Assembly (NCBI GenBank): GCA_002786785.1
Contig: PCUD01000116.1
Coordinates: 50,252 to 103,861 of the forward strand
Source: Ignavibacteriales bacterium CG18_big_fil_WC_8_21_14_2_50_31_20
GTDB lineage: Bacteria > Bacteroidota > Ignavibacteria > Ignavibacteriales > Melioribacteraceae
Length of the DNA stretch: 53,610 bases
Reading direction: 5' to 3'
Made by a program: the position numbers and the translations under genes. Shown piece by piece: positions 50,147 through 53,610 of the stretch; position 1 is the stretch's first letter; each line of letters begins with the position of its first letter. The notes beneath the pieces were generated by a model that saw nothing but the letters and a program-made list of their open reading frames with translations, did no database searches and was not told the origin of the DNA.

Positions 50147-51895
50147 TTACTTTATTGATTTTGAAATATTAATATTATGCTTCTTCATTTTTCTCCACAG
50201 AGTTGAAGGATCAATATTTAATTCCTTTGCCGCTTTCGGTCTATTGTGATTATTCTTTTCCAAAACTGAAATTATTAATTCTTTTTCAGTTTCCTTAAAG
50301 CCTTTTTGTCTGCTTGAATTATCTAACACACTAGCTTGCTCATTAAATTCTCTTATTCTTTTTGGCAAACACTCAACTTGGATTACTTCTCCATTGCATA
50401 AAACGAAACAATGCTCAATAGCATTTTCCAATTCCCTAATATTACCTGGCCAGTTATAATCCAGTATAAGATCAAAAGCAGATGATGAGAATTGCCTTAT
50501 GCTTTTGTTGAATTTCTTGTTGAAACTTTTAATAAAATGATTAACCAATAAAGGGATATCATCCATTCTTTCTCTTAATGGTGGAAGATGAATATTAATT
50601 ACATTAATTCTGTAAAACAGATCTTCTCTAAATCTTTTTGCGGAAATTTCTTCAGAAAGATTTTTGTTTGTAGCTGCAATTATTCTGGTATCCATTTTAA
50701 TAGATTTGTTTCCACCAACCCTCTCAAATTCGTGAGTTTCTAAAACCCTCAGAAGCTTTGTCTGCACTGCTGTTGAAAGATCACCAATTTCATCCAAGAA
50801 TAAAGTGCCTCCTTGTGCAAGTTCAAACCTTCCAATTTTAGTTTTTATTGCACCAGTAAAAGCTCCTTTTTCATGTCCAAAAAGTTCGCTTTCTAATAGT
50901 GATTCCGCAAACGCACTACAATTAACTGCTACAAAAGGACCTGTTTTCCTTGAACTTTTAAGATGAATTGCGCGTGCTGCTAATTCTTTTCCAGTCCCAC
51001 TTTCACCAGTTACTAAAACAGAGCTATCAGTTTGTGACACACTTTCCAGAACAGAAATAATTTGTTTAATCTCTTTATTTCTGCCAACAATATTCTCATA
51101 TGTATAATATTCATTAAGATGTGCAGATAAGTTTCTTATTTCTGAAATGTCAATAAAAGTTTCAACAGCACCAATATTCTCATTTTTATTGTTAATTAAA
51201 ACTACAGAATTTACACGAATAGGAATATTTTTACCACCCTTTTGAATTATCTCTAATTCATTTCCCAACATTGGTTTACCATTTTTAATTGTTTGTTCCA
51301 TGTGGCATCCATTGCGACAAAGAGAAGAGTTGAAAATATTCCAACATTTTTTACCAATAGCTTCCAACTTTTTAAACCCTGTTATTTTTTCTGCAGAGGT
51401 ATTAAATGAAGTGATATTCCAATCGTTATCAATTGTAAATGTACCTTCTATATTACTATTAAATATTGCATCAAGTTTATTTTTTTGATCGATAAGTTCA
51501 GAAGTCTTTTGTTGAATTTCTTCAGCTAAAAAAAGCATTTCTTTTGTATCTCTAAATACAAAAACTACACTTAGAACCGTTTCATCCCTTTTAATAGGAG
51601 TAACTGATGCAAGCACATTAATTATATTGCCCTTATTATCGGTTATGTTAATGGAAAGATTCGAAAAAACAATATTATCTTTTAATGATTCAATAATATA
51701 TTTTCGTTCACTATTTTTTTTCGCAAAAATAAAATCAAATTTACTTCCTATTACCTCTTCTTCAGAATAACCTGTAATTCTTGAAGCTGCTGCATTAAAT
51801 ACAATGATTTTTTCATCTTTGCTAATTACAACAATCCCATCAGGAATTATTAAAGTTTCCTTATTCCTATCAATTATATTTTGAACATCTGTCAT
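50147..51895 (-). CDS. Sigma-54-dependent activator with two PAS domains
   Basis: 582-residue enhancer-binding protein from ATG 51895. PAS 1 covers about 10-120. PAS 2 covers about 145-265 and holds a cysteine motif, Cys184-x8-Cys193-x3-Cys197-His198 ([17 protein letters not shown]), which may bind a cofactor or sense redox state. The AAA+ domain has GESGTGKE (Walker A), the sigma-54 contact GAFTGA and [11 protein letters not shown] (Walker B). The C-terminal Fis-type helix-turn-helix is [23 protein letters not shown]. The frame opens further upstream to 52087, but that part crosses the promoter region and does not look like protein. It is divergent from a radical SAM operon with a sigma-54 promoter. 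Confidence 0.93.
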
Positions 51896-51919: not shown

Positions 51920-51948
51920 AATATAGCCATTTGATTGCGATAATGCAA
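51920..51948 (-). promoter_or_regulatory. Possible sigma-70 promoter of the activator gene
   Basis: On the minus strand TTGCAT (51943-51948) is followed by exactly 17 bases and TATATT (51920-51925). The -10 is a 5 of 6 match; the -35 is only 3 of 6. It lies about 25 bases before ATG 51895. The -35 overlaps the palindrome at 51944-51969, so a bound activator could repress its own gene. Confidence 0.4.
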
Positions 51949-51969
51949 CCTTTATGCATAAACATTGCA
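51944..51969. promoter_or_regulatory. Imperfect palindrome, candidate activator binding site
   Basis: A 26-base inverted repeat, with halves TGCAACCTTTATG and CATAAACATTGCA matching at 11 of 13 positions around the centre TTTATGCATAAA. Its centre is about 97 bases upstream of the predicted start of the sigma-54 promoter, within the range used by enhancer-binding proteins. A further short pair TTGC/GCAA overlaps it at 51935-51948. Confidence 0.6.
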
Positions 51970-52027
51970 CTATTACAATAATATTTAAAAAATGATTAAA
52001 AAAAACGACTAAAAAGCTTGTTTTTTG

Positions 52028-52043
52028 TGGCATACAATTAGCA
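52028..52043 (+). promoter_or_regulatory. Sigma-54 (-24/-12) promoter of the radical SAM operon
   Basis: TGGCATACAATTAGCA matches the consensus TGGCAYR-N4-TTGCW at every defined position except one T of the -12 element. The GG (52029-52030) and GC (52041-52042) are separated by exactly 10 bases, as sigma-54 requires. Transcription would start near 52054, giving a leader of about 22 bases with SD GAGGT before ATG 52076. A sigma-54 activator gene is divergent next to it. Confidence 0.82.
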
Positions 52044-52075
52044 TTAATAGTATAAATCTTAAAACGAGGTATAAT

Positions 52076-53125
52076 ATGAATAGTCAAATAATTACTCGGT
52101 TCAAAAATATTGCAAAAAAAATCTCCGCAAAATTGGAAGAGAGTATTCTTTCTGATAAATCACTAAAATGCAAAGTAGTATATGGACCTGTAAAAACGAG
52201 AAGATTAGGTTTAGTATTAGGAATTAATAATGCACAATCAAAAACATGTTCATATAATTGTGTTTATTGTCCAAGTGGAAAAACCTCTTGCTGCTCTACA
52301 TTCAGTAATAGCTGTTTGTCGCCTTATGAACTTTATATTTCTGTTAAAAATAAATTAGAAGAAATAAAAAGAAATGGACAAAAAGTGGAATATATTCTTT
52401 TTGCCGGCAGTGGAGACCCAGCGCTTGATCCTAATCTATCAAAAGAAATCTCACTATTGCGAGAATTTGGTTATAAAATTGCCGTTTATACAAATTCTTC
52501 TTTAATCTGGAATGAAAACATACAAGAAAATTTAATGTTTGCAGACTATGTATCTCTTAAAGTTGATACTGTTTCTGAAAATACTTGGTCGAAACTAAAC
52601 CGCCCACATCCAAGATTAAGATTTAAGCATATATTAAATGGAATAGAACAGTTTTCAAAAAGATTTAGAGGTACACTTAGTACTGAAACTACACTTGTAA
52701 AGGATATCAACGATAGTACAGAGGAAATACATGAGCTTTCGAACTTTTTGAATAATCTCAAATGTAAAACATCATATTTTCTCACACCTTCGTTTCCTCC
52801 AACAAAAAGCTTCGCCGTAAGTCCTGAAGCTAGTGTATTGGAACAATTATCCGGAATGTTAAAAGAAAAATTAAAAAACGCGGTTTTATTGTGTTGCCCC
52901 GAAACAGAAGAGTTCTTTGCAACCGGTGATTTTGAAAATGAATTAATGGGATTGCTTTCACTTCACCCTGTTAGGGTTGATTCAGTAAAACACTTTGTTA
53001 AAGAGAACACCAAATTAGACTTACTTGAAAATTTAATTGATAATCAGACTATAAAAGAAATAACATATAGTGAAAGAAATTTTTATGTAGAGAATATTGA
53101 ACCCAACTTAAGTGTGGCTTCATAA
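52076..53125 (+). CDS. COG0731-type radical SAM protein
   Basis: 349-residue radical SAM enzyme. The cluster motif is C58-x3-C62-x2-C65 in [14 protein letters not shown], preceded by [18 protein letters not shown], the block that marks the COG0731 group (related to TYW1 but of different or unknown function in bacteria). A SAM-binding glycine stretch reads [14 protein letters not shown]. The C-terminal third (from about 255) contains [16 protein letters not shown] and a possible helical domain. ATG 52076 follows SD GAGGT; a TTG at 52025 lies inside the promoter and is rejected. It is the first gene of an operon with a small protein and an Mrp-type ATPase. The substrate is unknown. Confidence 0.87.
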
Positions 53126-53147: not shown

Positions 53148-53300
53148 ATGGATAAAATGAAATCAATTAATATTAATAAATATTTTTCTTTACTCCTCTG
53201 GCTTGTTGGATCAAATCTTTATTCAAGAAAAGGAATAAGACAATATCTAGACGGTCTTGGCTCTTTCTCAACAAAAATTGGAAATACAGAATATGACTGA
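53148..53300 (+). CDS. Small 50-residue protein, unrecognised
   Basis: Short ORF between the radical SAM and Mrp genes. It reads MDKMKSININKYFSLLLWLV and continues GSNLYSRKGIRQYLDGLGSF to a stop at 53298-53300. GAGGG lies about 9 bases before the ATG, and the stop overlaps the start of the Mrp gene (ATGACTGA), so it is probably translated and coupled. A short hydrophobic stretch (YFSLLLWLVG) is too short for a certain TM helix. No family was recognised. It could be a small partner of the ATPase or radical SAM protein. Confidence 0.65.
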   Translation: MDKMKSININKYFSLLLWLVGSNLYSRKGIRQYLDGLGSFSTKIGNTEYD

Positions 53301-53610
53301 GCACGAACAAGATATAGCTTATGAAGAAGAAGAAAAAAGAATTAAAGAGAATGTTTCAAAGATTAATCACCGTATAGCCGTATTTAGTGGTAAAGGCGGT
53401 GTTGGTAAAACAACATTGAGCGTAAACCTAGCTTATGGATTACAATTAGAAGGCTTCTCAACTGGAATTCTTGACGCAGATATTACAGGTCCTAATGTTG
53501 CTAAAATGCTTGGGATTAATAGCGAATTGATTATGCTGGATTCGAAAATGATTCCGTTTGAAAAATATGGAGTAAAAATGATTTCCATAGATTCATTAAT
53601 TCCATCTGGA
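53293..53610 (+). CDS. Mrp/NBP35-family ATPase, 3' end missing
   Basis: The first 106 codons of a P-loop iron-sulfur carrier protein. After a short acidic start (MTEHEQDIAYEEEEKRIKEN) comes the deviant Walker A VFSGKGGVGKTTLSVNLAYG, then ILDADITGPNVAKMLGI, the hallmark of Mrp/ApbC/NBP35 proteins. The family moves or assembles 4Fe-4S clusters. It overlaps the small upstream ORF by 8 bases. The gene runs off the right edge, so the C-terminal CxxC motif cannot be checked. Sigma-54 control of an Mrp gene is known from the orange-protein loci of Desulfovibrio. Confidence 0.93.
   Translation, partial: MTEHEQDIAYEEEEKRIKENVSKINHRIAVFSGKGGVGKTTLSVNLAYGLQLEGFSTGILDADITGPNVAKMLGINSELIMLDSKMIPFEKYGVKMISIDSLIPSG

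Follow-up and report, generated by a model that had tools for sequence, protein, structure and literature searches.

The 16-mer TGGCATACAATTAGCA (52028–52043, + strand) lies in the 180-bp gap between a sigma-54 activator gene and a divergent radical SAM gene of an uncultured Ignavibacteriales, 48 bp ahead of the radical SAM start codon, and it raises the question of whether so short a match is a promoter and, if so, which genes it serves. Positions are those of the window, that is, the whole stretch of 53,610 nucleotides that was analysed. It is considered very probable that the 16-mer is a sigma-54 promoter which, together with the divergent activator and two upstream dyads, drives an operon running from the radical SAM gene to a NifX-like gene.

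Flanking Genes

The activator (50147–51895, − strand) is a protein of 582 aa with two PAS domains, an AAA+ domain, an AAA lid and a Fis-type HTH, as found by domain matches (PF00158, E = 8.4e-72; PF25601; PF02954) and in the translation, where the GAFTGA motif is seen directly; the Sigma54_activat AAA+ domain, GAFTGA and the Fis-type HTH are together the features of a bEBP. On the + strand, the operon begins with radical SAM protein 1 (PF04055, 349 aa, 52076–53125), preceded by the Shine-Dalgarno sequence GAGG (52066–52069), and continues with an NBP35/Mrp-type P-loop ATPase (PF10609, 53293–53610) that extends beyond the window end. The genes that come after it, all outside the window, are in order CGGC (PF08821), PNPOx-like (PF01243), radical SAM 2, DUF5320 and NifX-like (PF02579). 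A small frame (about 50 aa, MDKMKSININKYFSLLLW...) was also noticed at 53148–53301, after radical SAM 1 and overlapping the start of the NBP35 gene. In the congener G004 (L064 6143–6459 and L065 3231–6082), radical SAM 2 beside the operon matches in two short pieces and CGGC is missing from that place; CGGC and a radical SAM 2-like gene are found on another contig.

The Candidate Promoter

Compared with TGGCAYRNNNNTTGCW, the site has a single mismatch (T to A, position 13). The −24 box (TGGCAY) is complete, the −12 box (TTGCW) carries one change, and both invariant pairs, GG (52029–52030) and GC (52041–52042), are present with ten bases between them, exactly as the preliminary description had read them. 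With the C of the latter pair at −12, the transcript start is predicted at 52054.

Taken by itself, the 16-mer is not beyond chance. The window holds three matches with at most one mismatch against 1.91 expected, and a hand-set matrix ranked the site highest in the window on both strands with 13.7 bits, next to a runner-up of 13.5, a score that by itself does not set it apart. A genome-wide scan for TGGCAYRNNNNTWGCW returned eight matches (the reversed control, none), and because five of these eight strict matches are in coding sequence the motif is unusable on its own. A search with the consensus TGGCACG...TTGCW, two mismatches being allowed, did not return the 52028–52043 site and gave chance-level matches only. 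Within the 180-bp intergenic region, a match of such quality on the right strand occurred in 5 of 20,000 shuffles, and it is the context, namely the intergenic position and the conservation in relatives, that renders the promoter convincing. A second intergenic strict sigma-54 site, TGGCACACAACTTGCA, was found elsewhere in the genome at L157 6333 (G000:C65:65332), 85 bp ahead of a gene for 251 aa; some 3.3 kb upstream there is an activator gene.

Upstream Dyads and Spacer

Two dyads, absent from the preliminary description as was the nature of the operon, lie upstream of the site. The first, UAS1 (TTGCGATAATGCAA, 51935–51948), is an exact TTGCRN4YGCAA centred at about −112, and the second, UAS2 (TTGCACTATTACAA, 51965–51978), 30 bp away and centred at about −82, has one mismatch; both are conserved in the orthologous intergenic regions. 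This is the sole dyad pair so spaced in the window, and 20,000 shuffles of the intergenic sequence yielded none. When one mismatch at most was allowed, ten orthologous intergenic regions, the source genome and its congener (L063 and L064) being left out, had 6.6 dyads per kb versus 0.24 per kb in the remainder of these loci, figures that are partly post hoc given that the consensus was derived from the same aligned regions. A stronger argument is provided by the fixed spacing and the phylogenetic breadth: the paired dyads of the orthologous regions are 30–31 bp apart, and, measured from where the nearer dyad starts, the −24 box begins 64–68 bp farther on in L066, L067, L078, L079, L170 and L171, and 65 bp farther on in L068, while in L069 and L086 the distance to the promoter candidate is longer. 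The conserved pair would thus supply the putative enhancer sites expected of a sigma-54 promoter. Another dyad pair, at L086 6900 and 6932 (32 bp apart), lies just past the point where the match to the radical SAM gene ends and suggests another target in that genome.

The spacer between enhancer and promoter (51979–52027) is 84% A+T and may possess an intrinsic bend. No IHF-like site was found between the dyads and the promoter when one mismatch was allowed; the sole IHF-like site lies farther upstream, adjoining UAS1 on the − strand. A housekeeping promoter of the activator overlapping UAS1, an arrangement that would produce autorepression of the kind described for the Desulfovibrio activator DVU2106, was also considered as a possibility; scanning yielded a single weak match, which is below the shuffled mean and overlaps the activator gene at its 5' end.

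Conservation in Relatives and Linkage to the Activator

The promoter is identical in the congener (L064) and is conserved in L066 (TGGTACGTTAATAGCA) and L078 (TGGAACACAATTAGCA), with looser versions in L067, L068, L079 and L170 (TGGAACGATTAATGCA); in L086 it reads CGGCACGCTTATTGCA and stands farther from the dyads. The TGG of the −24 box is retained in L067, L068, L069, L070, L079 and L084, where the GC of the −12 box is replaced by GA, GG, GT or TC, which reflects either a relaxed −12 box or wrongly called sites. At L070 1117–1319, L084 2992–3240 and L171 2260–2700, dyad and promoter-like sites beside the activator precede a different first gene (MNIKPKCIACTVKQA..., which reads as a DUF89-type protein), and the first gene of the operon therefore varies.

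Among 58 genomes (the source genome and 57 relatives), strong orthologs of radical SAM 1 were found in seven (G000, G004, G007, G015, G023, G042 and G045), all seven of which have an activator ortholog; a close activator without a radical SAM 1 ortholog was seen in only two further genomes. In G007 the activator and radical SAM 1 are on separate contigs, and the radical SAM gene retains both dyads (L068). The activator of that genome (L170) is divergent from a gene that reads as NifX-type (MNKRIAIAIEE...DHFGHC), with a dyad and a promoter, followed by what reads as a MinD/ferredoxin-type gene (an ATPase with ferredoxin-type cysteines). The conserved site, the two enhancer-type dyads and the strict co-occurrence of activator and radical SAM 1 support the earlier proposal that the promoter belongs to the radical SAM gene and is served by the adjacent activator. 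A broader proposal, put forward tentatively and given slightly less than an even chance, is that an Ignavibacteriales lineage of PAS-containing sigma-54 activators controls a dispersed and reshuffled radical SAM/NBP35/NifX-type regulon through the TTGCRN4YGCAA pair, with an unusually relaxed −12 box in some members.

Alternative Explanations

The 16-mer might be a chance match, with an ordinary housekeeping promoter reading the operon and the activator controlling something else, and its near-chance frequency in the window and the location of most genome-wide matches in genes are what such a coincidence would produce. A coincidence does not, however, account for a site that is conserved in relatives, for a dyad pair conserved at a fixed distance from it, or for the co-occurrence in seven of seven genomes; in G007, where the activator is separated from its target, dyads are retained at both places. 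Moreover, a search limited to the E. coli-type consensus gave no sigma-70-like site on the + strand ahead of the radical SAM gene, and this explanation is considered quite improbable. Even less credit, in effect almost none, is given to the idea that the promoter bases are translated, as part of an extended radical SAM protein or activator. TTG-start frames do cover the site on both strands, but the activator matches in relatives start at residue 1 (ATG 51895), as does the L064 radical SAM match (ATG 52076), which has the Shine-Dalgarno sequence just ahead, and the length of the intergenic region differs among relatives. Because the conserved proteins start at these two codons, the site is intergenic, and the frames over it are over-extended on both strands, as had been stated in the preliminary description.

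The same description had made the promoter depend on an rpoN gene in the genome, and on this point it formally fails, since two family models and one protein query found no rpoN in the draft assembly, which is 99.4% complete. The promoter and the activators could accordingly be relics of a system left silent when the strain lost rpoN. Against this, the assembly is in 182 contigs, and the genes on either side of rpoN in relatives, hslV and DUF3109, are likewise absent, although the protein query that found none of the three here detected all of them in each of the six relatives tested. In addition, rpoN is present in 56 of the 58 genomes searched, all four congeners included, and the activator retains GAFTGA and is 97% identical to that of the congener. 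The absence of rpoN is likely to be an assembly gap because hslV and DUF3109 are also missing and the four congeners have rpoN; a contiguous segment that carries rpoN is probably missing from the assembly, and the strain would then possess sigma-54. The loss of rpoN is accordingly judged very improbable, more so than a chance match. In the source genome, 14 activator AAA+ domains are near-complete and one more is matched in split form. At the DNA level, the rpoN region gave only a distant PPIase paralog on contig C146 as a match, and no rpoN was present near that contig end.

Proposed Mechanism

Under the favoured explanation, that of a sigma-54 promoter controlled by the divergent activator, the PAS-PAS-AAA+-HTH protein would bind the dyads centred at about −112 and −82, their 30-bp distance placing the bound activator on one helix face. 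It would then loop across the A/T-rich spacer to RNA polymerase-sigma54 at 52028–52043 and open the promoter by ATP hydrolysis once a signal, which may be redox or iron-sulfur status, is sensed by the PAS domains. The genes from radical SAM 1 through NBP35/Mrp, CGGC, PNPOx-like, radical SAM 2 and DUF5320 to NifX-like would be transcribed as one operon, and a probable task of their products, on the model of the Desulfovibrio orp system, is the assembly of iron-sulfur or mixed-metal clusters.

Relation to Known Systems

By analogy, the operon most likely encodes iron-sulfur or metal-cluster proteins similar to those of the Desulfovibrio 'orange protein' operons. In Desulfovibrio vulgaris, transcription of the orp operons, which contain Mrp/NBP35 and orange protein genes, depends on sigma-54 and IHF together with the activator DVU2106 and its two palindromic sites (PMC3897727; PMC6345978). 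The locus resembles the orp operons of the Hildenborough strain (PMC3897727, PMC4641369) in its sigma-54 promoter, in a single-component activator gene beside a divergent operon, in two palindromes upstream as putative activator sites and in its Mrp/NBP35 and NifX-like targets. It differs in that the operon is headed by a radical SAM gene and also has CGGC, PNPOx-like and DUF5320 genes, in that there is one divergent operon instead of two, and in the GAFTGA of the activator, DVU2106 being listed with GAFTDA; the spacer is A/T-rich, whereas the Desulfovibrio orp promoters need IHF. Similarly, MrpORP and NBP35-type Fe-S carriers (PMC6345978) share a sigma-54-controlled NBP35/Mrp P-loop ATPase that is encoded together with a NifX domain of the orange-protein kind, but here two separate genes encode the ATPase and the NifX-like domain. 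In the sigma-54/ORP-like Deltaproteobacteria MAG loci L143 and L149, the activator faces a divergent gene that by reading is NifX-like, with TGCA-type upstream repeats and a perfect −24/−12 site, although that activator is only about 44% identical over the AAA+/HTH part and the strict dyad is not matched.

An ORP-type cluster is recognised by genes for an Mrp/NBP35 ATPase and a NifX-like protein (PF02579) that adjoin their own sigma-54 activator and two palindromes, and all of these are present here. The tandem ferredoxin-MinD ATPases (Orp3/Orp4) were not among the operon genes examined, and for this reason the operon is called orp-like and not a strict member of the type. What is described is real and of a known type, a well conserved regulatory unit of a sigma-54 promoter and its cognate activator, here attached to an orp-like operon whose first gene encodes a radical SAM enzyme. 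The promoter is otherwise an ordinary sigma-54 promoter, and the dyad offers a searchable motif for the regulon. A specific activator, enhancer motif and promoter are thereby tied to a metal-cluster operon in an uncultured Ignavibacteriales, which extends orp-like sigma-54 control beyond Desulfovibrio and adds radical SAM enzymes to it.
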